A stretch of 34,728 nucleotides of DNA from Clostridia bacterium. Its GTDB lineage: Bacteria > Bacillota > Clostridia > Oscillospirales > Acutalibacteraceae. Where the stretch lies: assembly GCA_017938985.1 (NCBI GenBank), contig JAGBAK010000024.1, forward strand, positions 1 through 34,728. The letters run 5' to 3'. Shown here piece by piece: positions 18,534-34,133 of this stretch. A program made the position numbers and the translations under genes. The notes under the pieces were generated by a model. It was given only the letters and a program-made list of their open reading frames with translations, was not told where the DNA came from and did not search any database. The stretch's first letter is position 1. Each line of letters opens with the position of its first letter.

Positions 18534-19214
18534 TCAGATGTCAACTTCGTAGTTCCAAACCTTCCACTTGCCGTCTTCTTTGATGAGATATATGGTGCCG
18601 TCACCGTCATCGTCATCTTCCTTGCCCTTGATGGTGATGTCGAAATCAATTTCCTTGCCTTCTTCGATGTCAACGCCCTTGAGATCTTCGTCAAGTTCAT
18701 AGGATTCTTCGATGGATTTAAGGGTCTTGTTTTTCATATCGTCAACTTCGGTAATCTTGATTTTGATTTTTACGTTCTTGCCGTAATCATCTTCAAGGTC
18801 ATCAAGTTCATCTTTAAGAAGTTCTTCAACTTCGTCTTCAATGCTGCTATCTTCGTCAAGCTTGTAGATTGCCTGTCTCATTTCGGGCATAAGCTCAATG
18901 TAATCTTCTACGTTTGTCTTCTGGATTGCCTTGAAGTACTTCTTAGCTGCGCCTCTTGCACCTGTGTTGGGAACGATGATGCCGAAGATAAGGATAAGAA
19001 CTACAACAACTGCTGCAACTGCAGGAACTGCAATCTTTGCAATCTTCATTACCTGATCCTTCTGTTCGGGTTTCATGTTGTTAACGCCGGGGATTTTAGC
19101 GAGGATGTCGTTTGCCCCGCCCTTTGATGCTGCTGCGAAAGGAGCTCCGCAATTGCCGCAAACATTAGCGTTGTCATCTGATGCTGCGCCGCAATTTCCA
19201 CAAAATTTTGCCAT
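18534..19214 (-). CDS. Zinc-ribbon membrane protein with acidic extracytoplasmic domain
   Basis: 226 residues. An N-terminal zinc ribbon uses Cys5, Cys8, Cys19 and Cys22 (CxNCG...CGNCG), residues about 60-82 form one membrane helix, and 88-226 are a soluble domain with repeated acidic runs (EDEVEELLKDELDDLEDD, KEDDDDGDG) ending in DGKWKVWNYEVDI, the shape of DUF4878-like proteins that carry a lumenal alpha/beta domain. Function unknown. It lies 66 bases downstream of a second zinc-ribbon gene on the same strand, likely one transcript from the promoter at 19926-19955, with a strong terminator after it. Confidence 0.78.
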   Translation of the reverse strand: MAKFCGNCGAASDDNANVCGNCGAPFAAASKGGANDILAKIPGVNNMKPEQKDQVMKIAKIAVPAVAAVVVVLILIFGIIVPNTGARGAAKKYFKAIQKTNVEDYIELMPEMRQAIYKLDEDSSIEDEVEELLKDELDDLEDDYGKNVKIKIKITEVDDMKNKTLKSIEESYELDEDLKGVDIEEGKEIDFDITIKGKEDDDDGDGTIYLIKEDGKWKVWNYEVDI

Positions 19215-19280
19215 GGTAAAATACCGCCTTTCAATTAATTGTATTTTAAAAAAATTTGCGCCTGATTAAGTAACGGTTGC

Positions 19281-19841
19281 TTATTCCGCAACCTTTGTTC
19301 CGCACTCCGTGCAGAAATCACTACCTGCGAAAAGCTTGCCGCCGCAGTTGGAGCAGAAACCGATCTGCTCTGCCTCTTGCTGAGGAGCAACAACCGCCTG
19401 CGTTGCCATGGGTTTGCCGCAATAGGTGCAGAAACGCTGACCCTTTGCCACATAGTTGCCGCAGGATACACATTTTTCAAGCTCAACGCCGTTTTCGCTC
19501 TTAGGCATTTCATTGCCGCAAGAGGGGCAGAAAGCAGAGTTGCGAGGCACGTCGGCACCGCACTTGCTGCAGGGAGTGACGCCCTTTATCTGCTGAAGCT
19601 GCTGACGGTAATTCGAAAGCTTTGCTTCAACCTCGGCAATCTGTGCCATAACACTGCCGAACTCATACTCATAATCCGTGTGATGAAGAGCAACATAGAG
19701 CTTACCTGCCTGGTAATAAAGAGCATTGATTTTTTTCTCTTCTTCTGCAATGGCAGAATTGAGTTTGGCTGTATCCGCCATATCTTTGGTCTTTTTGCCG
19801 GCGTTGGACATCATTTTGTTGAGGTCATCCATAAATGCCAT
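19281..19841 (-). CDS. Coiled-coil protein with three zinc ribbons
   Basis: 186 residues from the ATG at 19841, which has GAGGAGGG just upstream; in-frame codons to 19898 lack a ribosome site. Residues 1-86 are helical with a probable coiled coil (about 65-86), and three CxxC-x10-CxxC zinc ribbons follow: Cys91/94/105/108, Cys124/127/138/141 and Cys163/166/177/180. Proteins of this type are common in Clostridia and are usually annotated as zinc-ribbon domain proteins without known function. No membrane helix. First gene of a two-gene unit with the zinc-ribbon membrane protein. Confidence 0.82.
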   Translation of the reverse strand: MAFMDDLNKMMSNAGKKTKDMADTAKLNSAIAEEEKKINALYYQAGKLYVALHHTDYEYEFGSVMAQIAEVEAKLSNYRQQLQQIKGVTPCSKCGADVPRNSAFCPSCGNEMPKSENGVELEKCVSCGNYVAKGQRFCTYCGKPMATQAVVAPQQEAEQIGFCSNCGGKLFAGSDFCTECGTKVAE

Positions 19842-19868
19842 TTTTCTTCCCTCCTCTTCTTGTTTTTG

Positions 19869-19886
19869 GAGTCCGTTAGCGGACTC
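19869..19886 (-). promoter_or_regulatory. Leader hairpin of the zinc-ribbon unit
   Basis: Perfect 7-bp stem GAGTCCG/CGGACTC with a 4-base loop between promoter and ribosome site. No T run, so a leader structure rather than a terminator. Confidence 0.45.
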
Positions 19887-19925
19887 TGTAAAAATCACCT
19901 GAAAAAGGTCGAAATTTATACTGAT

Positions 19926-20103: not shown

Positions 20104-21876
20104 TCAATCGGGAACAAATTTCACCGTAAAGCAATGGGAGCGAAGCATGTAATCACAAACGTCGCTTCTGAAACGGTTGCCCCGCATCTCTTTGTTGCCC
20201 ACTCTCACAACCGATGCATAACCGATTGAGGAGCTGTAAGCACCGTCGTGCGAAACAACGCTTATCCATTCGGAGGGGTTATCGCTCAGAACAATATTTT
20301 TATCATAATCAAGAATCAGCTCTTTCATTTCTTCCGAGCTGATTTTCAGTTCGGCAACGTCAACGGTTTCGGGACTGCTTGTTCCGCCGCAAAGATAGGG
20401 ATAAGAACCGCCCCAGACCGAGCTTGCTGATGCAGTTTTGCCTGCAGAGCTTGCAAAATAGCAGGTAAACGCAGGCTGACCGTTATAATCAACGTAAAAC
20501 GCTTTCGGCTCGTCGTCTGCACTCTTCATACCAAACAGCTCAAGGCACGCCTTGTGAGTTGCCGTACCCTCATATGCCCAGCTTGCAGAAAACGCATGGC
20601 GTGAGGAATCAACGTCAAAATTATATGTTTTTGCAAAGGTATAAACGGCAACTATCTGCGCTTTTATTGCTTCTTTTGGCGCACCGTTACCCATTTCACG
20701 ATAAGACGTTTTGCATAGATATTCAATAAGACCGTATTCAACGCCGCCGTATTTTACAGTCTGCGGCATTGCATTATCAGCTTTTACGGTTGTGCCGGGA
20801 AAATATGCGGCAATGATTTTTTTATAGTCACTGCCGTTTTTTGCCATTGAGATTGCACCCTCCTGGCTCATACCAACGCCGTGACCCCAGCCGTAGCTTG
20901 TAAAAACAAACGTACCGCTTTTGTCTGACGTTTCTGCCTGCTTGGTTGTCGGCTCAGGCACAGTCGTTTGCGGCTGCGTTGCCTTTGGAACGGTAGTTGA
21001 CGGCTTGGTCGGTGCTTTGGTTGTTGAAGCAGGCGCTTTGGTTGCACTCTGCGTCGGCTTTGTTTCGGTTTTAGTTGTGCTTTCAACAGGTTTTGCCGTC
21101 TGCGGCTGAGTTGTCTGATTAACGCTGACTGCAGGCGTCTGCACCGTCTGCGAAACGTCAGTTGCATTTTCAGCCGTGGAGGTAGCTGCAAAAAGAAGCT
21201 CCTCCTCATCGCCTATTCCGCTGCCGCCGCGGTAATCAAAAGGGTCTGTCAGCTCAACTGCAATTGTTGTATCAGGTTCAACCGCCTGCACAACGGCTCC
21301 GTTCGCTTTGGGCACGCTTTTTATGCTTGCGGCTGTTTTGTTTTCTGATTTTTCGCCAACAAAAAACGCAACCAGCAATGCAAGAACAACTGCTGCCGCA
21401 ATGCCGAGCATTACAACAATAAACGTAAGCCATGGTGTCTTTTTGGGCTTCGGTGCATCGGGACTTATAAGCGCTCCCGCCGCAACTGTTTCGCTGAGCA
21501 TCTCGCACAGCTTTGTTATTGCCGCACCTGCAAGAGCCTTTGTGCTTTCGCCGTCCTCGGCAAAAACCTTGGCTCCCCACGCTCTTTGGGAATCGGCAAG
21601 GCAGACAAGCACCAGTTTTTCTCCGTTTTCGGTTTCAACCTCAGACACCGCCGCACCAAAATCCGCCGTCGATTGCTCTTTGGCCGCTTTTGCCGCCTGT
21701 GCAAGAGAATCCGCTGATACTGCGCTGCCGTTAACGTGTGCAACCGAAAACGCATTTTCGCCGCCTTCAACACTTGCAACAACAGCCATCATCGGCTGAT
21801 AAAAGCCAACGTTTGCAACGGCTATTTTTTTGCCGCTTGCCACAACGGATTCAAGGTTTTCTCTGAAGCCTGCCAC
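20104..21876 (-). CDS. Transmembrane SpoIID-like protein with permuted domain and CinA-like N-terminus
   Basis: About 590 residues. I favour GTG at 21876, 10 bases from AAAGGA (21892-21887); GTG at 21885 leaves a 1-base gap. Residues below count from 21885. Cytoplasmic residues about 10-133 resemble the CinA C-terminal domain (GSAVSADSLAQAAK...STADFGAAVSEVE) but lack its ESCTAG and GIAGP motifs. A membrane helix covers 152-174. Residues 235-320 are a Thr/Pro/Gln/Lys linker. The SpoIID-type domain has GWGHGVGMSQEGA (332-344) and YFPGTTV first, then REM (Glu397 aligns with the catalytic Glu of SpoIID lytic transglycosylases), EAIKAQ (405-410), and an SSAGKTASASSVWGG region. That order is reversed from ordinary SpoIID. 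Last gene of the operon; probably acts on peptidoglycan or a surface ligand. Confidence 0.85.
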   Translation of the reverse strand: MAGFRENLESVVASGKKIAVANVGFYQPMMAVVASVEGGENAFSVAHVNGSAVSADSLAQAAKAAKEQSTADFGAAVSEVETENGEKLVLVCLADSQRAWGAKVFAEDGESTKALAGAAITKLCEMLSETVAAGALISPDAPKPKKTPWLTFIVVMLGIAAAVVLALLVAFFVGEKSENKTAASIKSVPKANGAVVQAVEPDTTIAVELTDPFDYRGGSGIGDEEELLFAATSTAENATDVSQTVQTPAVSVNQTTQPQTAKPVESTTKTETKPTQSATKAPASTTKAPTKPSTTVPKATQPQTTVPEPTTKQAETSDKSGTFVFTSYGWGHGVGMSQEGAISMAKNGSDYKKIIAAYFPGTTVKADNAMPQTVKYGGVEYGLIEYLCKTSYREMGNGAPKEAIKAQIVAVYTFAKTYNFDVDSSRHAFSASWAYEGTATHKACLELFGMKSADDEPKAFYVDYNGQPAFTCYFASSAGKTASASSVWGGSYPYLCGGTSSPETVDVAELKISSEEMKELILDYDKNIVLSDNPSEWISVVSHDGAYSSSIGYASVVRVGNKEMRGNRFRSDVCDYMLRSHCFTVKFVPD

Positions 21877-21902
21877 TGCCTGCACGTCCTTTCTTTTAAA
21901 AA

Positions 21903-24122
21903 TCAGTCAACATACCAATGCTTTTCATCGGCATAGTTGTTGGGCTTGTTAAGCTCGTCGCACCAAGCCTGCGGACCCTTGGGGTCTGAATTTACAACAG
22001 CCTTTGATGTGTCGATGTTAACGCTTTCGCCCTCTCTGAGAAGTCTTGCAACAACAACAAGTCTTGCATCGTTGAAATCATAGGCACAGGTTGAAAGGGT
22101 AAGAATCTTATCAGTTACCTCAAGACCTACGCCCGTGTTATAAAGCGATCTCTTTTCAAGTTCAACAATATATTCAGCAAAAAGCTGGTCGCTGCAATCA
22201 ATAAAGTTATAGGGGAATACGTAACCGTTATCGTGCTTGGGGTCGCTGTTTGAAATAAACACGCCGCAAACAACCCATTTATAATCGCCGTAAATTGTGT
22301 TGCACTCAATAATCGGCGCTTTCTTGAAGCCGTCAATATCTCTGTATTCCTCAAGCATACCGAAGATAAGGTCGTCGCTTCTCATGTTGTGGCCGTAAAT
22401 AACGGTGTTTCTGGGCAAAGTTTTAAACTGCTCCTCTTCAATTCTGTAATCGAAGAAGGGTACACCGTATGAAACCCACTTTTTATAGAAATTGCGCTTG
22501 AGATAATAATCGTTATTGCTTCCCTGAACAAGGGGAAGATTCATCTCAAAAGCAGGAATTGAAATCCATCCGCGAAGGTCAGTGTTTTCTCCGTAGAGCT
22601 GGGCATATTTTGCCATCATTCCGTCAGGGAAATCAACGTCATATTCGTTTCTTATTGCGTCATTAACCTGCGCATTGCCGTATTTATCTTCACCTGCATC
22701 CATCTGGCTGTTCTGCTGCGAGATATTGTCTTTTGCAATCCGTGGCTGAACAAGATATGTGTTGATAAGAATTGCGGCGCAGACAATCATAACCGTGAAA
22801 GAAATTGCAAGAACGATTCTTCTGGCAATTTCGCCTTTGCTTACGGGTTTCTTTTCGCCGTTTTTCTTTTCAAGTTTTTCCTGTTTCTTTCTTGCCTTTT
22901 TTTCTTCCTTGGACTCTTCAACGCTTGCCTCAAGAGCCGCTTTTCTTGCTGCCTCAAAGTCGCCGATAACAACTCTGTCCGACGGCTCTTCGGTAGCGGT
23001 GCTGTAGTTTCCTATCATATCAGGGTCAAAGAAAACCTCATTCCGATTTTCTTCGGATTTCTTAACCTCTGCCGCATCAGCTTCAGCGGCATAATCAGCA
23101 CCGTCTTCGGGAATGTTGACAACAAAAGCTCCGTTTGTTTCCTGTTCGTTGGGTCGCTCGGTAATCTGCTCTTCTTCGCCGAGAAGAGCGGCAAGCTCAC
23201 GCTCAAATTCTTCGGAATCGGTATTTACCGACGATTCTGCCTCCGCATTGCCGCCAACAAAAGCGTCAGGCTGAACGCTATCCGGTGTCTCTGTTACGGG
23301 AAGGCTTACGGAATCGGCAACATCATCAACCTGTTCCTGTCCGTGAGCAGAAATAGTTATATCGGAAAGACTTTTTGCCGCTTCGTTTGCCTCGTCAAGA
23401 ATGGGGTCCTGCTCGGCAGGTGTTTCAACGGGAAAGCTTTTAAGAAAATCTTCAATTGCATCGTAATTGTTTTTAACGGGAGCAATACCGGCGTTTGCTT
23501 CAATCTCTGCAAGAATATCGTCAAAGCCTGTTTCATCGCTTGCAGAACTTTTAATCTGATCAATCAGACCGAAAATATCGTCTTTTGCAACGTCGGCCTT
23601 TATTTCTTTCGCCTCGGGTTCAAGGTCAACGGCAGGCATAAATACGTTTTCGGTTTCGGGAAGAGCTTCCGCCGTAAAAGCGGGTGTTTCTTCGTCCGCC
23701 TGCGGTTCAGGTCTAAAAAACGCTTCTTCGGGAACAAACGGCTGCTCATCCGATACGTCTTCGGGTTCATCAAGCGAAACAACGGGAATATCAATATATT
23801 CCTCGGGGCTCATCCACATTTCGTCAAGACCGCTTTCAGCCGTAACGGTTTTTTCTTCGCTCTTCGGCTCCTCGGCAGTAATGACAGACATCGGCTTGGG
23901 AACTATTGTTGCGGGTCCGCTGTTCATTATATCGTCATAGAGGCTCTGCAGTTCGCTTTCAAGGCTTCTCTCTGTTTTCTCGATATCCTCGTGGAAACCT
24001 TCAAAAATCGGAGCCTCCTTTGCCGTTTCTTCAAGAAAGCTGCCCAGATCTATTTCTGTAAGCACGTCTTCATCTGTGACGAAGCTCAAATTCTCATTTC
24101 TTTTTTCGTTGTTTTTATCCAT
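21903..24122 (-). CDS. Class B sortase with a long acidic cytoplasmic extension
   Basis: 739 residues. Residues 1-405 are acidic, low complexity and probably disordered; 405-425 are strongly basic (KKARKKQEKLEKKNGEKK); 434-456 form one membrane helix; the extracellular sortase domain covers about 500-695. Catalytic residues are His578 (VIYGHN), Cys679 (LTLSTCAYDF) and Arg687 (ARLVVVARLL). Sortases cleave a sorting signal and join the protein to the wall or to pilus subunits. The class B call rests on the TLSTC context and the long loops before the Cys. GGAGG lies 8 bases before the ATG. The domain and the tail after Arg are clearly paralogous to the next gene upstream in the operon. The cytoplasmic tail is far longer than in standard sortases (usually a few tens of residues). 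Confidence 0.92.
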   Translation of the reverse strand: MDKNNEKRNENLSFVTDEDVLTEIDLGSFLEETAKEAPIFEGFHEDIEKTERSLESELQSLYDDIMNSGPATIVPKPMSVITAEEPKSEEKTVTAESGLDEMWMSPEEYIDIPVVSLDEPEDVSDEQPFVPEEAFFRPEPQADEETPAFTAEALPETENVFMPAVDLEPEAKEIKADVAKDDIFGLIDQIKSSASDETGFDDILAEIEANAGIAPVKNNYDAIEDFLKSFPVETPAEQDPILDEANEAAKSLSDITISAHGQEQVDDVADSVSLPVTETPDSVQPDAFVGGNAEAESSVNTDSEEFERELAALLGEEEQITERPNEQETNGAFVVNIPEDGADYAAEADAAEVKKSEENRNEVFFDPDMIGNYSTATEEPSDRVVIGDFEAARKAALEASVEESKEEKKARKKQEKLEKKNGEKKPVSKGEIARRIVLAISFTVMIVCAAILINTYLVQPRIAKDNISQQNSQMDAGEDKYGNAQVNDAIRNEYDVDFPDGMMAKYAQLYGENTDLRGWISIPAFEMNLPLVQGSNNDYYLKRNFYKKWVSYGVPFFDYRIEEEQFKTLPRNTVIYGHNMRSDDLIFGMLEEYRDIDGFKKAPIIECNTIYGDYKWVVCGVFISNSDPKHDNGYVFPYNFIDCSDQLFAEYIVELEKRSLYNTGVGLEVTDKILTLSTCAYDFNDARLVVVARLLREGESVNIDTSKAVVNSDPKGPQAWCDELNKPNNYADEKHWYVD

Positions 24123-24140: not shown

Positions 24141-25151
24141 TCATTCATAGCTGGGCACCCAGGCGTCTGTGTTCTTATAGGGATTTGCAACGCCCTTGCT
24201 GTTATACCACACCTGCGGTCTGCGGTAATCGGGGTTGTCCTTTACAAGAGATGCGTCAATTTCTTCGCTTTCGCCCTCATGAAGAAGTCTGCCGACAACA
24301 ACCAGTCTGGTATCCACGTTCTTGCCGTAATCGTAAATACAGGTTGAAAGCGTAATCACCTTATCTGTAGGTTCAAGCGAAACGCCTGTTTCGTAAAGCA
24401 TTCTCTGCTGAACCTGCTCGATGTAGCCGACCATATTGTTATCGCTCATATCGGGATAAATATAGTTGAACATATAGCCGTTATCGTCAGCCCTCTGGGT
24501 TGTTGAAAGGAAAACAGCACAGATTTTGTAAGTATATTCGCCGTTGAGAGTCTGATATCTGATTATCGGGTTTTCAATGAAATGGTTCATATCCTTGTAT
24601 TCATACAAAGAACGGAACGCCTGCTTGGGAACGCCGCTTGCTCTGCCTGTTGTGTGGCCGTGGATAACCATATTCTTTGAAAGGTCATCGGTGTTTGAGC
24701 AACGGTAATCAAGATAAAGGTTACCGTAGTTTGTTCCCGTTGTTTCGGTTGTGTATCTCTCATAGAAATCATATTTGAGATAATGATCGTTATCCTTACC
24801 CTGAAGAATAGCCGTGTCGATTTCTGTTCCGGGAATAGTCAGCCAGCCAACAAGGTTATTGTTTATTGAATATGCCTGTTTCAAATCCTCGGAAACGGTT
24901 TTGCCGTCAAAAGTTTCTGCTTTCTGGCTGTTTGACTGAACTGCACTGAGCTGTTTTGCGGCGGCGTTATATTCGGTAATGCCGTTCGCTTTCAAAGCAG
25001 GCAGTGGCACAGGCTCTTCAGGCGAAGTTTCAGCCTGCGTTTGGGTTGCCGCCGTATCTTTTATCAGGTTTGTTACGGCAAGCGAGCCGAAAACAAGGGT
25101 CAGCACCGCAAGCACGGAACAAACGCTTATAAGAATCTTTTTCTTATCCAT
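24141..25151 (-). CDS. Class B sortase
   Basis: 336 residues from ATG at 25151 (GGAAGGAAAG upstream); a TTG at 25175 would overlap cinA. Signal anchor about 7-29, Thr/Pro/Glu stalk about 33-55, sortase domain about 90-290. Catalytic His166 (VIHGHTT), Cys271 (ITLSTCIYDY) and Arg282 (TRLVVVGRLL). The C-terminal tail GRLLxEGESxxID...PQxW...W is shared with the longer sortase downstream, so the two arose by duplication. The ATG lies one base after the cinA stop, implying coupled translation. No LPxTG-type substrate is encoded in the window. Confidence 0.92.
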   Translation of the reverse strand: MDKKKILISVCSVLAVLTLVFGSLAVTNLIKDTAATQTQAETSPEEPVPLPALKANGITEYNAAAKQLSAVQSNSQKAETFDGKTVSEDLKQAYSINNNLVGWLTIPGTEIDTAILQGKDNDHYLKYDFYERYTTETTGTNYGNLYLDYRCSNTDDLSKNMVIHGHTTGRASGVPKQAFRSLYEYKDMNHFIENPIIRYQTLNGEYTYKICAVFLSTTQRADDNGYMFNYIYPDMSDNNMVGYIEQVQQRMLYETGVSLEPTDKVITLSTCIYDYGKNVDTRLVVVGRLLHEGESEEIDASLVKDNPDYRRPQVWYNSKGVANPYKNTDAWVPSYE

Positions 25152-25152
25152 C

Positions 25153-26409
25153 TTACTTTCCTTCCTTTTTCTCAATATAGCGCCTTACAAGATTGAGCGC
25201 GCGTGAGGAATTAACGTATCGGTTATATTCTCTGTCATTTTTCCCCGTTTCGATTTTTTCGCAGATTTGCGTATCTGCCGCGTCAAGAGCAATGAAGCAT
25301 AAGCCGACGGGTTTGTTCGTACCGTCACTGCCTGGGCCTGCGATGCCCGTGACGGATATTCCGATATCCGCGCCCGAAACACGGCGGATACCTGCCGCCA
25401 TTTCTCTTGCCGTTTCTTCGCTCACCGCACCGTGAGCAAGAAGTGTTTCGTGCCTGACCCCAAGCACTTTTTCTTTAACGTCGTTTGAATAGGTTATTGC
25501 GCCGTATTCAAAAACCTCACTTGCGCCCGCAATATCGGTTATTCTTTTGGGAATATATCCTGCCGTACAGCTTTCTGCGGTTGCAAGTTTTAATTTATAC
25601 TTTTTGAGCAGCTCAACAACTCTCTGCTCAATGCTTTCGCTGTCAATTCCGTAAACAAACTCACCGAGCCTGTTGCGTATTTCTTCAATAACAGGTTCAA
25701 GAAGTTTTTGTGCCTCAGCTTCGGTTGCCGCCTTTGCGGTAATTCGCAGAAGTGCTTCGCCCTTTTTGGCATAGGGTGCAACCGTGGGGTTTTCGCCCTG
25801 AAGCAAGTCATCAACCAGCTCCGCCATTGCGCTTTCGCCGATTCCCATTGTTCTGACGGTATGCGAAACAATCACGCCGTCGGAATACTCTGCAAGATAA
25901 GGCACAACGCACTCGCGATACATCGGCGCCATCTCATAGGGCGGACCGGGCAGAATAACAACGCACTTGCCGTTTTTCTTTAAGCCAAGACCCGGAGCCG
26001 TACCGTTTTTGTTTTCAAAAACCTCTCCGCCGACAGGAACGTAAGCCTGTCTGAGGTTGTTTTCAGGCATCTGAACGCCTCTTGATTCAAAATAACTCCT
26101 GATGCCTGCCGCAATTTTTTGGTCAAGCGTAAGCTCAAAACCCATAACCTCGCAGCAAACGTCTCTTGTTATGTCATCCGCCGTCGGACCGAGACCGCCC
26201 GTTGCAATAACGATATCGCTTCTTTCAAGCGCGGTTTTCAAGGCGGCGGCAAGCCTTTCAGGGTTATCGCCGACGGTTGTGTGGCGCAAAACGGAGATAC
26301 CGATTTTGGCAAGCTCAACCGAAAGATATCTTGAATTTGTGTTAAGAATATCGCCAAGCAGGATTTCCGTGCCGACAGATAAAACTTCGCAAACTGCCAA
26401 TCGAGGCAC
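25153..26409 (-). CDS. cinA: CinA-family protein (competence/damage-inducible, NMN deamidase-type)
   Basis: Two-domain CinA, 418 residues as read. The N-terminal MoCF_biosynth-like domain (about 8-170) has SVGTEILLGD and TGGLGPTADDITRD; the C-terminal CinA domain (about 260-415) has ATAESCTAG and VTGIAGPGSDG, the signature of nicotinamide mononucleotide deamidase (PncC) activity in NAD recycling. The frame opens with GTG at 26409, but AAGGGAG abuts it; a TTG at 26400 has ideal 8-base spacing and leaves the usual short N-terminus before SVGTE, so the true start may be 26400. Third gene of the operon. All catalytic motifs are intact, in contrast to the degenerate copy fused to SpoIID. Confidence 0.93.
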   Translation of the reverse strand: MPRLAVCEVLSVGTEILLGDILNTNSRYLSVELAKIGISVLRHTTVGDNPERLAAALKTALERSDIVIATGGLGPTADDITRDVCCEVMGFELTLDQKIAAGIRSYFESRGVQMPENNLRQAYVPVGGEVFENKNGTAPGLGLKKNGKCVVILPGPPYEMAPMYRECVVPYLAEYSDGVIVSHTVRTMGIGESAMAELVDDLLQGENPTVAPYAKKGEALLRITAKAATEAEAQKLLEPVIEEIRNRLGEFVYGIDSESIEQRVVELLKKYKLKLATAESCTAGYIPKRITDIAGASEVFEYGAITYSNDVKEKVLGVRHETLLAHGAVSEETAREMAAGIRRVSGADIGISVTGIAGPGSDGTNKPVGLCFIALDAADTQICEKIETGKNDREYNRYVNSSRALNLVRRYIEKKEGK

Positions 26410-26425: not shown

Positions 26426-27601
26426 TTAATAGCCGCTGATAAGAACGAATCTTGCATTTTCTGCAGCTTCGTCAACAAGCTTGTCCACCTCAAGAGCCTT
26501 TTCGCATTCTTCAACGTATTCAATGGTAGGTCTTGTTCTGGGGTGCTTGGGTGTGAATACCGTGCAGCAATCCTCATAGGGCAGAATTGAAATGTCAAAG
26601 GTTTCGATTTTTCTTGAAATCGCAACCACCTCATCTTTATCCATACCGATAAGCGGTCTGAAAACAGGGATTTCGCAAACGCTGTCCGTGCAAGCTATTG
26701 CCTGCATTGTCTGGCTTGCGACCTGACCGACGCTTTCGCCCGTGATAAGCGCACCTGCGTGCTCTTTTGCGGCAATTTTCTGCGCAACACGCATCATCAT
26801 ACGGCGCATAATAACCGTAAATATTTCTTCGGGGCAATTATCCTTGATAAGCTCCTGCGTTTTTGTGAAAGGAACAACAAAAAGAGCAATTCTGCCCGAA
26901 TATTTGCTTACCTGCTTCAGAAGCGAATGTACCTTCTGCTCGGCTCTTTCGCTTGTGTAAGGAGGCGATGCAAAGTGAACAGCCATAAGCTCAAGTCCTC
27001 TTTTTGCCATCATATAACCTGCAACGGGGCTGTCGATTCCGCCTGAAATAAGCAGAGCCGCTCTGCCTGCAGAGCCCGTGGGCATACCGCCCGCACCCTT
27101 TATCTGATTGCCGTGAATATAAGCACTTGTGTCTCTTATCTCAACGGTAACAACGATATCGGGGTTGTGAACGTCAACCTCAAGGTGAGGAAATTTGCGA
27201 AGAAGATATCCGCCTGTTTCCCTGCAGATTTCAGGAGAAGTGAGCGGAAACTTTTTATCGGAGCGCTTTGCTTCTACCTTGAAGCTTCTGACCGTCAGAA
27301 GCTGGGGAGCCAGGTATTCTTCAGCGCTTTTGAGGATTGTATCCATATCCTTTTCAACGGCGGCGGCTCTTGAAAAGCCTGCAATACCGAAGATTTTGCC
27401 GATTCTTTCAACTGCCTCGTCAAGGTCGACGGTTTCATTCTCAGGCTCGGCAACAATTGTTGACTGCGCAACGGTAAACTTGAATTTGCCCACGCTTTCA
27501 AGTCTGCGGCGCATATTTTTAACAAGCATATCTTCAAACGTTCTTCTGTTAAGACCCTTGAGAGCAAGCTCTCCGTTTTTAATAAGAATTATCTCTTTCA
27601 T
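26426..27601 (-). CDS. thiI: tRNA 4-thiouridine synthase
   Basis: ThiI transfers sulfur to U8 of tRNA. 391 residues, the short Gram-positive form without the C-terminal rhodanese domain. Ferredoxin-like N-domain and THUMP domain about 60-165, then a PP-loop ATPase with SGGIDSPVAG (about 184-193) for UMP adenylation, and GESVGQVASQT further on. GGAG lies 7 bases before the ATG, 22 bases after the cysteine desulfurase stop. Adjacent desulfurase-thiI pairs are the known arrangement in Bacillus and Clostridia, in which the desulfurase passes persulfide directly to ThiI. Confidence 0.95.
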   Translation of the reverse strand: MKEIILIKNGELALKGLNRRTFEDMLVKNMRRRLESVGKFKFTVAQSTIVAEPENETVDLDEAVERIGKIFGIAGFSRAAAVEKDMDTILKSAEEYLAPQLLTVRSFKVEAKRSDKKFPLTSPEICRETGGYLLRKFPHLEVDVHNPDIVVTVEIRDTSAYIHGNQIKGAGGMPTGSAGRAALLISGGIDSPVAGYMMAKRGLELMAVHFASPPYTSERAEQKVHSLLKQVSKYSGRIALFVVPFTKTQELIKDNCPEEIFTVIMRRMMMRVAQKIAAKEHAGALITGESVGQVASQTMQAIACTDSVCEIPVFRPLIGMDKDEVVAISRKIETFDISILPYEDCCTVFTPKHPRTRPTIEYVEECEKALEVDKLVDEAAENARFVLISGY

Positions 27602-27623: not shown

Positions 27624-28757
27624 TTATTTTGCAGCTCTTATGACCTTTTTGGCTTCGGTGATACCGAGAATAAGAGCGTCTATTTCCTGAAAAGTTGTGA
27701 ATCTTGAAAAACTGATTCTGAGCGGACTGTCCATGCGCTTACGGTCAAGACCCATCTGCGAAAGAACATGGCTCTTTTTACCCTTTGAGCAAGCAGAGCC
27801 TGCCGAAACACTTATGCCCCTGTCCGAAAGGAAGTTGAGCATCGGCTCGGACTTGATTCCGAGCACAGAAACGTTTGTAACGTAGGGCAATGCATCGGGC
27901 GGAGAGTTGATAACAACGTCACCGATTTCGCCGAGCTTTGATACCATATAGTCACGCATGGCGGTGATATGCTCAAGCTGACGCCCGGGGTCGGGCAAAG
28001 CTCTTGCCGCAGCGGCAAAGCCTGCAATTGCCGGCATAGGCTCCGTACCAGGACGGACTTTGCTTTCCTGCGAGCCGCCAAAGGTTCTTGCGTTGATTTT
28101 TACGCCCTTGCGCATATAAAGAGCGCCGACTCCCTTGGGACCGTGGATTTTATGTGAGCTTATCGTCATAAGGTCAACACCCATTGCAGAGGGCTTTATC
28201 GGCATTTTTCCGAAAGCCTGAACGGCATCGCAATGAATCAGCGCAGGTGAGCGTGCCATCAGCGCAGCTCTTTTTGCCGCTTCAACAGGCATAATTGTTC
28301 CGACCTCGTTGTTGACAAGCATCATTGTAATAAGAATTGTGTTTGAGTTGACGGCAGCATAAAGGTCTTTTTCGTTTATCCTGCCGTAGCTGTCAACCTT
28401 AAGCTTTATAACCTCAAAGCCTTCGGCTTCAAGCTGATTGAGGGTTTCATCAACGCTCGGGTGCTCAACGCTTGTTGAAACAATGCGTTTGCCCATGCGT
28501 CGCATTTTGTGAGCCGCACCGATAACGGCAAGGTTGTTTGTTTCTGTGCCGCCCGACGTGAAATAAATCTCTTCGGGCAGACAGCCGAGTTTTTTTGCAA
28601 TATCCGCTCTTGCGGAATCAAGCAGCTCCTTTGCACGGTTGCCCGATGAATGGAGCGATGAGGGGTTGCCCCAGCAATGAATCAGCGCATCCGCCACGGC
28701 GTTTACCGCATCGCTGCACGGAGCGGTTGTGGCGCTGTTATCAAAATAGGCCTGCAT
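27624..28757 (-). CDS. Cysteine desulfurase (NifS/IscS-like), ThiI partner
   Basis: PLP enzyme converting cysteine to alanine and an enzyme-bound persulfide. 377 residues. Motifs: YFDNSATT at the N-terminus, TSGGTETNN (67-75), VEHPSV with the PLP-stacking His, SSHKIHGPKG with Schiff-base Lys203, and SAGSACSKGKKS with catalytic Cys323 on the mobile loop. It begins the six-gene operon, with GGGGGA before the ATG and a clear promoter at 28810-28838. Position next to thiI favours the dedicated NifZ-type role in tRNA thiolation over FeS assembly, though both are possible. Confidence 0.94.
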   Translation of the reverse strand: MQAYFDNSATTAPCSDAVNAVADALIHCWGNPSSLHSSGNRAKELLDSARADIAKKLGCLPEEIYFTSGGTETNNLAVIGAAHKMRRMGKRIVSTSVEHPSVDETLNQLEAEGFEVIKLKVDSYGRINEKDLYAAVNSNTILITMMLVNNEVGTIMPVEAAKRAALMARSPALIHCDAVQAFGKMPIKPSAMGVDLMTISSHKIHGPKGVGALYMRKGVKINARTFGGSQESKVRPGTEPMPAIAGFAAAARALPDPGRQLEHITAMRDYMVSKLGEIGDVVINSPPDALPYVTNVSVLGIKSEPMLNFLSDRGISVSAGSACSKGKKSHVLSQMGLDRKRMDSPLRISFSRFTTFQEIDALILGITEAKKVIRAAK

Positions 28758-31330: not shown

Positions 31331-31367
31331 AACAGGCTTGGATGCATATCCAAGCCTGTTGATTTTT
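31331..31367. terminator. Bidirectional intrinsic terminator
   Basis: AACAGGCTTGGAT (31331-31343) pairs perfectly with ATCCAAGCCTGTT (31348-31360), 13 bp, then GATTTTT on the plus strand; the minus side has a shorter T-rich tract. Confidence 0.85.
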
Positions 31368-32739
31368 AATAAGGATTTTCAAGAAAATACTGCATTACCT
31401 CGTTGGAAACGTTGACCGCCGTTCCCATACCTGAGCCTGCATTTTCCGCAATGCAAACAACAGCGAGCGGCAGGTCGTCTCTCTGTGAGTAACCCACAAA
31501 CCACGAGTGGCTGGTCGCTCCCGTAATCTGCGCTGTACCTGTTTTTCCGCACATTTCAAGGTCGGGGAAACGGTAGTCACCGTATTCGTTTTTGATGTTT
31601 GAACGCAGCAAATAATCAAGCTGTCTTGCCGTTTCGGGATTAACGGAAATCATAACCTCGGGGGTTCGGATATCCGATTCACCGCCGATTGACGAAATTC
31701 TGTCAGGTGCGTATCCTTCGCCGCCGTTTGCTATAGCTCCCATTATTGCAAGAAAATGCGTGGGATTAACAAGGGTTGTCGACTGACCTATTCCTGCCCA
31801 ACCAAGCTCAAGCTTGTCTGTTGCAGGAGGATTGAACGAGCTGTCTTTTATGGGTACTTCTCTTGCGGTAAGCTCGCCGTTGAAGCCCATTGATTCCGCC
31901 GTTGCAATAAGCTTATCCGCGCCGAGTTCAATAGCTATCTGTGCAAAAACAGCGTTGCAGGATTCGTTCATCGCTTCCTCAAACGTGAGTCCCGAACCGT
32001 GGTCATCGTTGCAGATAACGCCTCGCTGACCCTCGGTAACAACGTATTCGCCGTTGCAGTCAAAGGTGCGCTCATAGATATCGGGAATATTCTCGATTGC
32101 GCTTGCAGCGGTAACAATTTTCATAATCGAGCCGGGCGTATAAAGACCCGAAACAACCTTATCAAGATAAGCGCCGCTGTAAATCGGGTTGGAATCAATA
32201 TCCTCAGGTTTGTTTACAAGGTCATACGTCGGCTTTGAAACACTGCACAAAAGCTTGCCCGTTTCGTAGTTATAAACGGCAACCGCACCGTTATATTTTC
32301 CGAGCGCTTCATACGCAACCCTGCACGCTTCGGCATCAATGCTCATAACAAGCTCGGGACCGACGCCATGTTTTTTGAGGGTATAAATACCGTCAACAAA
32401 GTTGTAACCCGAGAGGGAATCGCTGTAGATATTCTGTGTGCCTGTTGAAATATATCCGTTTGTATCACCCATAACGTGAAGCACCGCCATACGAATAGCT
32501 TCATCTTCGTTGTAAACCCGCTTTTTCCCTTCGGTTTCGGCAAGAACAACACCCCTGCTGTCAAGCAAAGGTCCTGCGCTGATAACGTCTTTTGAGCGTG
32601 AATAAAGGTGGCGGTTGGCGCTGTTTGCAACCCAGGTTTTGCCGTTCATTGCAACGTTAACAACAAGAATAACCGTTCCTGCAAGAAAAGCAAGTATAAC
32701 CGCATAAAGAACAAAAGCTCTTCTGACCGTTATTTTCAT
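31366..32739 (-). CDS. Penicillin-binding protein, transpeptidase (PbpA-like)
   Basis: Class B-type PBP cross-linking peptidoglycan outside the membrane. 457 residues: signal anchor about 8-31, a short N-terminal domain to about 145, transpeptidase domain about 148-455 with SxxK S204-I-M-K207, SCN (260-262) and KTGT (399-402). It is shorter than most PBP2/PBP3 proteins (600-700 aa) and close to the actinobacterial PbpA type. Its ATG overlaps the stop of the SEDS gene by 4 bases (ATGA), so they are translated as a pair, as for glycosyltransferase-transpeptidase partners. Confidence 0.92.
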   Translation of the reverse strand: MKITVRRAFVLYAVILAFLAGTVILVVNVAMNGKTWVANSANRHLYSRSKDVISAGPLLDSRGVVLAETEGKKRVYNEDEAIRMAVLHVMGDTNGYISTGTQNIYSDSLSGYNFVDGIYTLKKHGVGPELVMSIDAEACRVAYEALGKYNGAVAVYNYETGKLLCSVSKPTYDLVNKPEDIDSNPIYSGAYLDKVVSGLYTPGSIMKIVTAASAIENIPDIYERTFDCNGEYVVTEGQRGVICNDDHGSGLTFEEAMNESCNAVFAQIAIELGADKLIATAESMGFNGELTAREVPIKDSSFNPPATDKLELGWAGIGQSTTLVNPTHFLAIMGAIANGGEGYAPDRISSIGGESDIRTPEVMISVNPETARQLDYLLRSNIKNEYGDYRFPDLEMCGKTGTAQITGATSHSWFVGYSQRDDLPLAVVCIAENAGSGMGTAVNVSNEVMQYFLENPY

Positions 32740-34133
32740 CTGACGCCACCTCCTTTGCTTTGTCTGTCAATCGGAGGCACATAGGGTCTTTTTGCAGGCG
32801 GATTGGGCCTGTCCACAGGACGCTTTGAGGGCGGCGGAGGCGGAGCAGGCATTCTCTGCTGACGCTGTGCTCTCGGACGTCTGCGCATGGGTATGGGTCT
32901 TGCATCTGCTTCAGGCGGAACGAACGGAGCGCTTGCCATTCTGATATAGGCAAGCAATCCCCACGAACAAATCATACTTGAGCCGCCTCGGCTGACAAAC
33001 GGAAGCGTAACGCCCGTGAGCGGAAGCAAATCCGTTATGCCGAAAACGTTCAAAGCAAGCTGAAACAGCATCATACCTGCAGCAGAAACGGCGGCGATTG
33101 TATAAAACGTTGAGCCTGCCGTTTTTGAAGCATGGATTGCAAAAAACGCAATACCCACAAAGCAGAGCATAATTGCAATGCCCATAATAAGTCCGAATTC
33201 TTCGCAGATAAGCGCAAACACCATATCCGTTGAAGCCGCATAGATGTCACGAACGTGACCTTCACCAAGACCAAGACCGAAAAGTCCGCCGCTGGCAATA
33301 TAAATCAAAGCTCGTGACTGCTGATAGCCTGTGGTATCCATATATTCCCAGACGTGTCTGTAAGCCTGGAATCTTGCGGCAACGTGTTCTTTGAAATAGA
33401 AAACAAGAACCGCACACATAAGCGCTCCCGTGCAGACAAAGAAAATTGTTCTTACGTCGCCCGAGCGCATAAACGCAATAAGAATAAAGGTAAAAAAGAA
33501 AATAAGAGCCGTGCCGAAATCCCTCATCAGGAACAGCGCACCGACGCAGCCGACACAGAAAATAAGATATTTTGTAAGGCTGGTTGAAGAAAGCAGCTTT
33601 TCAAGCGAAACCGCACCGACAAAAATGAAAGTAACCTTAACAAGCTCCGAGGGCTGAATTGAGAAAAAGCCAAGGTCAATCCAGTTGAGCGTGCCGTTGA
33701 TGCTTTGCGCAAGAGCAAGGTTTGCCGCAAGAATCAGCACACTGCCGATTGCCGCAGGCGTTCGCATTTTTGAAGCAAAGTTGACGTCCTTTGTCACCAG
33801 AATAACGCCAAGATAAGTTATCAGACCAAGAACAATGGCAAAAAGCTGTTTATAGGCATATGCATCGTTGAAGCTTGCACAGACCGTAAGACCTATACCC
33901 GAAAGAAAAAATCCGATTGCCTCAAGTTCAAAATAGTCGTGACCCGTTATTATCGTGCCGAGCGCCATATACATCCATTCAAGCGCAATGTAACCGAGAA
34001 ACGTATAGATTGTGATTGCGCTGACGTCTTTTTGCCTGAGCAGAATACAGGCACAGCAAATAACCTGGAATATTGTTATAAGAAAAAGAACGGTAATCTG
34101 TTTGAAACGTGGCTGCTGCTTTTCTTTGCTCAT
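32736..34133 (-). CDS. SEDS-family peptidoglycan polymerase (FtsW/RodA-like)
   Basis: 465 residues, about ten membrane helices to residue 405, then a Pro/Arg-rich cytoplasmic tail (PAPPPPPSKRP...). SEDS signatures include WIDLGFFSIQPSELVK, where WIDLGxxxxQPSEL is diagnostic, RDFGTALIF, and the C-terminal PLTGVTLPFVSRGGSSM. SEDS proteins polymerise glycan strands from lipid II with a partner PBP, here the overlapping downstream gene. AAAGGAGG precedes the ATG. Division (FtsW) and elongation (RodA) roles cannot be told apart. A possible promoter, TTGATT with a 19-base spacer to TATAAT, lies upstream near 34190-34230, but the spacing is poor. Confidence 0.93.
   Translation of the reverse strand: MSKEKQQPRFKQITVLFLITIFQVICCACILLRQKDVSAITIYTFLGYIALEWMYMALGTIITGHDYFELEAIGFFLSGIGLTVCASFNDAYAYKQLFAIVLGLITYLGVILVTKDVNFASKMRTPAAIGSVLILAANLALAQSINGTLNWIDLGFFSIQPSELVKVTFIFVGAVSLEKLLSSTSLTKYLIFCVGCVGALFLMRDFGTALIFFFTFILIAFMRSGDVRTIFFVCTGALMCAVLVFYFKEHVAARFQAYRHVWEYMDTTGYQQSRALIYIASGGLFGLGLGEGHVRDIYAASTDMVFALICEEFGLIMGIAIMLCFVGIAFFAIHASKTAGSTFYTIAAVSAAGMMLFQLALNVFGITDLLPLTGVTLPFVSRGGSSMICSWGLLAYIRMASAPFVPPEADARPIPMRRRPRAQRQQRMPAPPPPPSKRPVDRPNPPAKRPYVPPIDRQSKGGGVR

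Follow-up and report, generated by a model that had tools for sequence, protein, structure and literature searches.

In a stretch of 34,728 nucleotides from Clostridia bacterium (family Acutalibacteraceae; contig JAGBAK010000024.1 of assembly GCA_017938985.1), hereafter the window, a protein encoded behind an intact cinA and two sortase genes appears to join the remains of a second CinA to a SpoIID-type domain across a single predicted transmembrane (TM) helix. CinA is known as an enzyme that recycles nicotinamide adenine dinucleotide (NAD) and is linked to competence. We lean towards the explanation that the pseudo-CinA (pCinA) part of this protein is a scaffold or assembly-regulatory module, which descends from a duplicated cinA and carries, on the outer side of the membrane, a circularly permuted SpoIID lytic transglycosylase. 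As far as sequences tell, the explanation builds on homology to CinA, the loss of its catalytic residues, a TM helix that separates pCinA from SpoIID, a retained SpoIID glutamate, a constant gene position after cinA and the sortases, and signs that the domain is under constraint.

Kinship with CinA in profiles and folds

An earlier sequence-only reading of the window had aligned the first ~130 residues of the protein with the C-terminal (PncC) domain of the neighbouring CinA; its observation is confirmed, and its interpretation is partly supported. The 32-residue alignment on which it leaned, described as holding about 9 identities, is exact (9 in 32, residues 50-81 against CinA 326-357), and the ESCTAG and GIAGP motifs are absent together with about 20 residues, the missing stretch being mainly the YxNxxK block. 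Pairwise alignment to the window's CinA is nevertheless rejected as proof of kinship, since it stands at chance level: BLASTP returns an E of 0.14, the Smith-Waterman score of 42 compares with a shuffle mean of 32.5 (standard deviation 5.9) and is reached by 147 of 2000 shuffles of the domain, and the best ungapped 32-mer with 9 identities is matched by 47 of 60 shuffles. Similarly, a four-sequence profile of the genus aligns only weakly to this single CinA in hhalign (probability 8.0, E 0.0043), and the window protein has no match to the Pfam CinA family (PF02464) at the curated cut-off. Pfam matches to SurA_N and Peptidase_M50 lie under their cut-offs and were discarded, as PncC fits instead.

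Homology to CinA is clear only through family profiles and predicted folds. A search with the domain across 300 sampled genomes of the same family matched 40 at E<=0.01, some of which are CinA itself or artefacts; among these, L032 proved to be a CinA fused to a sortase and not pCinA, and L033, a cysteine-rich frame unlike the rest, was judged an artefact. The search yielded three full-length homologues (L035-L037) from ruminant-gut metagenome-assembled genomes named Clostridia bacterium, which are 55-61% identical to the window protein across residues 2-588 or 2-590. An alignment of 19 cytoplasmic regions of relatives (A1) matches the window's own CinA with an E of 8.8e-13 over 243 columns, with both CinA domains in register. 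When the halves are compared separately, the degenerate PncC domains (47 sequences) match the CinA PncC profile (57 sequences) with a probability of 98.5 and an E of 1.9e-15 over 136 of 141 columns, and the degenerate MoCF domains (48) match CinA MoCF (48) with a probability of 99.1 and an E of 1.9e-18 over 143 of 163 columns, while 14 mismatched profile pairs (KH, the other CinA domain, two sortase sets, SpoIID, ThiI and NifS) all remain at or below 3.5. Against the CinA PncC profile, the window domain scores 54 alone and 90.7 as the four-sequence genus profile, with other profiles at 2.5 or less.

Other searches point the same way. Five of the 19 sequences in A1 match Pfam CinA weakly, with an E of 0.0022 at best, and two match a HAD hydrolase family, the runner-up. 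Against the whole PDB by sequence, A1 finds S. mutans CinA (6mr3) best, with an E of 6.7e-8, followed by a designed protein at 9e-4. In 391 genomes of the class, all the matches listed except the window's own score below 53 bits and are mostly open reading frames (ORFs) of about 420 codons, the ordinary length of CinA; that they are ordinary CinAs is read from ORF length and score, and from domains for L158-L166 only. Furthermore, an AlphaFold2 (AF2) model of the window domain and the fold searches made with it recover the CinA-C/PncC fold, so that the homology proposed for the first ~130 residues is upheld by profiles and folds alike. A two-domain AF2 model of L035 is of low confidence (predicted local distance difference test 56.2), and serves as support only; CinA structures 4ct8 and 3kbq are among its six fold matches at E<=0.001.

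Two lost active sites

Residue roles and numbers follow T. thermophilus CinA, as given in the passages drawn on here (PMC4246079). In all 48 degenerate MoCF domains both the Mg ligand Asp76 and the ribose ligand Glu156 are lost, the latter being replaced by Arg in 35. The position of CinA Asp75 is aromatic throughout (Tyr in 28, Phe in 20), and where CinA has GTAPG the family has a Pro and DGLxSGF, which are 81-93% conserved. In the degenerate PncC domains the site of the catalytic Lys301, which holds nicotinamide mononucleotide (NMN), is deleted, the GxAGP loop is lost in 47 of 47, Tyr296 is retained in 19, and the phosphate-binding Arg377, mapped by motif and thus only approximately placed, falls in a gap. 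The position of Thr340 in the floor of the pocket is Ser in 34 and Thr in 13 of the 47; in the genus of the window the alignment reads V or E there. Residues conserved specifically in pCinA are a Glu (95%), an Ala (97%) and a Gly (93%), and the family alignment of pCinA contains no new conserved polar set resembling an obvious active site.

The proposal that the domain is a pseudoenzyme is thus borne out by the loss of the catalytic motifs. The accompanying idea that it senses nicotinamide nucleotides is not supported: the lysine and the loop are gone in every sequence, the phosphate-binding arginine falls in a gap, Tyr296 is kept in a minority, and V or E is read at the pocket threonine in the genus.

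Architecture, relatives and locus

The GTG start of the gene is preceded by AAAGGA ten bases upstream, as read from the sequence, and an alternative in-frame GTG at 21885 nearly touches this motif. No signal peptide was seen by eye in the 590 residues, and a basic stretch (KPKK) stands ahead of the TM helix, which predicts a cytoplasmic N-terminal domain and an extracellular SpoIID domain. The linker between them evolves fast, with 34-39% identity to the three relatives over residues 181-318.

Table 1. Features of the pCinA locus in the window.
Feature	Position	Strand	Remarks
Pseudo-CinA (PncC half)-TM-linker-SpoIID gene	20104..21876	(-)	590 aa, GTG start
Degenerate CinA-C/PncC domain	21469..21876	(-)	residues 1-136, predicted cytoplasmic; hhalign, AF2 model, fold search
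Single TM helix	21355..21432	(-)	residues about 149-174, after KPKK; read from sequence
Thr/Pro-rich linker	20923..21354	(-)	residues 175-318
SpoIID/LytB domain, circularly permuted	20107..20922	(-)	TIGR02669; PDB SpoIID matches in two swapped stretches
Sortase 2, class-B-type	21903..24122	(-)	long acidic N-terminus, TM helix at residue 436; His, Cys, Arg motifs present
Sortase 1, class-B-type	24141..25175	(-)	His, Cys, Arg motifs present
Intact CinA (MoCF-KH-PncC)	25153..26409	(-)	catalytic motifs present
ThiI	26426..27601	(-)	upstream neighbour
NifS/IscS-type class V aminotransferase	27624..28757	(-)	upstream neighbour

The SpoIID domain passes the NCBIfam model SpoIID_LytB (TIGR02669) with 107.7 bits against a cut-off of 83.3 and narrowly misses Pfam PF08486 (21.9 against 23). 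The solved SpoIID structures 5i1t, 5txu and 4rwr align to it as two stretches in swapped order: the GHGVGMSQ module (20788-20916), which is C-terminal in all three, leads in the window protein, and the core carrying the catalytic-type Glu394 (20695-20697) comes after, so that the canonical order is absent. In this alignment Glu394 pairs with position 101 of the 5txu chain, likewise a Glu; we take 5txu to be the SpoIID of C. difficile. The catalytic Glu of the C. difficile enzyme is reported as E101 in the passage cited (PMC6221140), and the catalytic-type Glu is, by sequence, kept in the window protein. Among 39 distinct genes having either module, 22 are permuted, 16 are canonical and one has a single module. 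The genome of the window also encodes a canonical SpoIID (L003) and a second permuted one (L002).

A degenerate MoCF (COG1058) domain precedes the degenerate PncC domain in 47 of 50 distinct relatives, the others being the window protein, L037 and L027, which is cut by the contig end. Behind the domain, 49 of the 50 have a hydrophobic run, and SpoIID lies in the same ORF in 28. Since nearly all relatives carry both halves, the family probably goes back to an entire, KH-less dead CinA, and the window protein, which has no MoCF half, is a shortened form keeping only the degenerate PncC. Matches to A1 of at least 100 bits, tallied by hand with at most five candidates scored per genome, occur at 95 places in 93 of 398 genomes and 26 of 135 genera of this family of gut Clostridia; among 394 genomes of the order, scores above 100 bits were reached at 11 places, every one of them in the window's own family. 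In a tree of 71 of 103 rows (26 of 45 pCinA, 26 of 39 family CinA and all 10 order and 9 class rows), pCinA forms one clade among the CinAs of the same order (Shimodaira-Hasegawa-like approximate likelihood ratio test 100), on a branch of 3.6 changes per column that carries a long-branch warning, so that its exact placement is unsafe and is not relied on. The suggested birth of the domain by duplication of cinA gains support from this clade, for all the length of its branch, and from the adjoining gene. Tandem pairs of pCinA genes were seen in two genomes (G123:C4:108352-111032 and G215:C65:8513-11163); the first ORF of each pair is the shorter (550 or 556 aa) and the second the longer (726 or 733 aa).

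A neighbourhood table was compiled for 47 loci, 18 of which hold pCinA. In all 18, cinA or a gene for PncC only comes first, one or two sortase genes follow, and pCinA comes after them on the same strand; ThiI is found upstream in 16, the exceptions being L042, at a contig end, and L090, where pCinA and SpoIID are two adjacent separate genes. Both sortases of the window score under the TIGR03064 cut-off of 153.75 (sortase 1 at 106, sortase 2 at 118.4), and the ~435 residues ahead of the TM helix of sortase 2 are strongly acidic, with 106 Asp/Glu and 25 Lys/Arg among the first 400; such a long acidic N-terminus is unusual for a sortase. The sequence-only reading had the order of PncC-like domain, TM helix and SpoIID right, and it missed the second dead domain, the intervening sortases and the fusions of CinA with sortase found in relatives.

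Of 60 family genomes searched, 55 have a CinA match, which in 17 lies in an open frame of more than 600 codons; 14 of these long-frame loci were examined, and 13 combine CinA domains with a sortase domain, while at the last (G047, L122) PncC stands alone, in a frame interrupted by an internal stop. Two of the 13, L038:3097-6573 (1159 aa) and L076:4904-8584 (1227 aa), also include SpoIID, in the order CinA (MoCF-KH-PncC), TM helix, sortase-like domain without the catalytic His and Cys, linker and SpoIID. The MoCF half is weak in the CinAs of L084 and L085, and CinA-sortase fusions occur in other families of the order as well (L114, L115, L117-L121). In addition, four genes that directly follow a CinA-sortase fusion gene (L075:4931-7870, L079:4984-7647, L080:2846-5413 and L082:5768-8539) encode a degenerate MoCF domain, a TM helix, a dead sortase lacking His and Cys, and a SpoIID of canonical order in one protein; a six-sequence profile of their N-termini, to which L081 and L085 were added, matches CinA MoCF at 98.4 in hhalign. 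Six of seven distinct sortase-SpoIID genes lack the catalytic His and Cys, and L116 keeps both. Dead sortases also occur where the ORF has no SpoIID: the catalytic residues are missing from the CinA-sortase proteins of G520, G001 and G010. L116:2563-5430 has a degenerate MoCF domain and a KH remnant, then a TM helix, an intact-looking sortase and SpoIID, and from its sequence it is a possible intermediate.

Further along the window, genes for an FtsW/RodA-type protein and for a penicillin-binding transpeptidase lie close to the operon (31366-34133, minus strand), and a similar pair was seen by eye beside the operon in L043. Two zinc-ribbon proteins lie downstream of the SpoIID gene (18534-19898, minus strand); in L037 and L043 an apparent two-component system, judged by eye, stands there instead, followed by a similar zinc-ribbon protein.

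Competing explanations and meaning

According to the explanation that we favour, cinA would have been duplicated, and in the copy KH and key residues at the two active sites would have disappeared, with the folds preserved. A TM helix would have come to link this copy to a lytic transglycosylase domain of the SpoIID type outside the cell. In most relatives the cytoplasmic part would be a complete dead CinA, and in the window the PncC half alone. The dead CinA may now act as an assembly and regulatory module, whose cytoplasmic assembly or ligand state would decide where SpoIID sits or whether it acts on the outside, close to the sortases that the operon also encodes, and the pCinA-SpoIID protein probably assembles with CinA and the sortases. 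The CinA dimer has been described to shift its COG1058 domains relative to a KH domain (PMC4246079), and the PncC pocket to be formed by two subunits (PMC3855486). As CinA enzymes are dimeric and both chains build the PncC pocket, the likeliest partner of pCinA would be a second pCinA chain or the intact CinA of the upstream gene. A heterodimer with CinA is a guess, as pCinA does not conserve the block that the other subunit contributes to the pocket wall (G46/S48), with G in 12 and S in 10 of 47 sequences. A more ambitious version, in which an asymmetric heterodimer of CinA and pseudo-CinA below the membrane would couple the state of NAD recycling to the wall, with a live sortase, in some genera its own fusion partner, recruited through CinA, SpoIID and in some genera a dead sortase paired with the live one recruited through pseudo-CinA, and proteins thereby anchored and the wall opened at one site, strikes us as improbable.

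Besides the unconserved pocket wall, several observations weigh against the favoured explanation. The MoCF half is missing in both the window protein and L037, and 22 of the 50 distinct relatives (one of them, L018, at a contig end) have no SpoIID in the ORF, and therefore the module can work without it. In L090, NifS and ThiI are not found although the upstream DNA is covered. Only one of the five AF2 models of the window domain is confident (83.0), the others ranging from 62.3 to 34.9. Estimates of the ratio of nonsynonymous to synonymous substitution rates (dN/dS) by NG86 are 0.26-0.33 for the domain (six pairs), with a dS of 0.9-1.2, which is near saturation, and those by YN00 reach 0.42-0.65 (five pairs) compared with 0.07-0.17 for SpoIID (four pairs). 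Because of the near saturation and the higher YN00 ratios, constraint on the dead domain is moderate at best; even so, the domain, dead as a CinA, does not look like a sequence in free decay.

These figures bear most directly on the possibility that the domain is a relic, a cinA fragment left at the N-terminus of SpoIID as a mere leader for membrane insertion. The YN00 ratios, the retention of only one half in the window and L037, and the lower identity to the three relatives (51-64% for the domain, 72-77% for SpoIID) would fit such a relic. However, the homologues in 93 family genomes, the lower NG86 ratios, an alignment spanning nearly all PncC columns, and the ORFs that keep the domain without any SpoIID to lead make this account quite unlikely. 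It is barely credible that the domain is an unrelated alpha/beta fold with a convergent likeness to CinA. Such a view can appeal to the chance-level similarity of the single sequences, the weak genus profile match to the single CinA and the missing Pfam match, but the family profiles and the recovered fold refute it unless a solved structure disagrees.

The strongest competitor, which we consider a lesser though serious chance, is a metabolite sensor, in which a homodimer with a dead pocket would still bind a ligand (a nicotinamide nucleotide, ADP-ribose or a new one) and signal its occupancy through the TM helix to SpoIID. The small polar residue in the floor of the PncC pocket and the conserved Pro and DGLxSGF of the MoCF half are consistent with a sensor, and CgSteA, reported to be stabilised by GDP or UDP (PMC12977500), offers a precedent. 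Against it stand the loss of the NMN contacts Lys301 and GxAGP and of the ADP-ribose contacts Asp76 and Glu156, the V or E at the pocket threonine in the window's genus, and the complete absence of the MoCF half from the window protein. Nicotinamide-nucleotide sensing is ranked below the scaffold because the residues for nicotinamide and phosphate are gone. The invariant Ser or Thr and the family's own conserved Glu could also be taken as signs of an enzyme with changed chemistry, but the deleted catalytic Lys, the metal ligand lost in all 48 sequences and an alignment devoid of an obvious new active site leave this very unlikely.

Among known systems, pCinA shares its domain fold, the MoCF-PncC order seen in relatives and its neighbourhood with CinA/PncC (T. 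thermophilus CinA 4ct8/4uux, S. mutans 6mr3, A. tumefaciens PncC 2a9s), but differs in lacking KH and the catalytic residues, in being membrane-anchored and joined to SpoIID, and, in the window protein, in escaping PF02464. With the SpoIID/LytB lytic transglycosylases (5i1t, 5txu, 4rwr) the window protein has in common a domain above the TIGR02669 cut-off and the catalytic-type Glu, whereas its permuted modules, N-terminal pseudo-CinA and cinA and sortase neighbours set it apart. The molybdotransferase Glp of Corynebacterium belongs to the same fold superfamily as the MoCF half. Glp is described as repurposed into an envelope scaffold in the corynebacterial divisome, as pCinA would be, but it binds FtsZ and a separate membrane receptor, GlpR (PMC10522489). 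In Mycobacteriales, SteAB is reported to activate RipA from an enzyme-like dimer inside the cell (PMC12977500). The arrangement proposed for pCinA is similar in its dimeric enzyme-like domain inside, one TM helix and a hydrolase controlled outside, but SteAB has a thiamine pyrophosphokinase-like fold, consists of separate proteins and comes from another phylum; that a cytoplasmic dimer steers a wall hydrolase here is proposed by analogy of architecture only. E. coli YfaY and YdeJ are CinA copies described as without NMN deamidase activity, and the YfaY lineage is described as missing the YxNxxK block and the AGP loop (PMC3855486), both of which pCinA lacks too. YfaY has its own NCBIfam model. 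Neither YfaY nor YdeJ is known to be membrane-anchored or linked to sortase or SpoIID, and there is no evidence of a common origin with pCinA.

In the open literature, with subscription papers and most preprints outside the scope, nothing was found that joins CinA, sortase and SpoIID, nor anything on CinA as a pseudoenzyme or on a circularly permuted SpoIID. The one hit for NMN deamidase with the cell wall concerned tuberculosis drugs, judged by title and abstract, and the 12 for CinA, sortase and fusion were apparently unrelated, judged by title. Inactive CinA paralogues are already known, and coupling a repurposed fold to an enzyme of the envelope is no new category. What the window adds is a pseudoenzyme module, predicted to be cytoplasmic, that goes unrecognised by Pfam in the window protein, at a locus that offers testable pairs, CinA with pCinA and live with dead sortase. 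The arrangement suggests that metabolism, or the intact neighbouring CinA, is wired to wall remodelling, and, if this is true, the lineage would link pyridine-nucleotide metabolism, protein anchoring and peptidoglycan opening at one locus.
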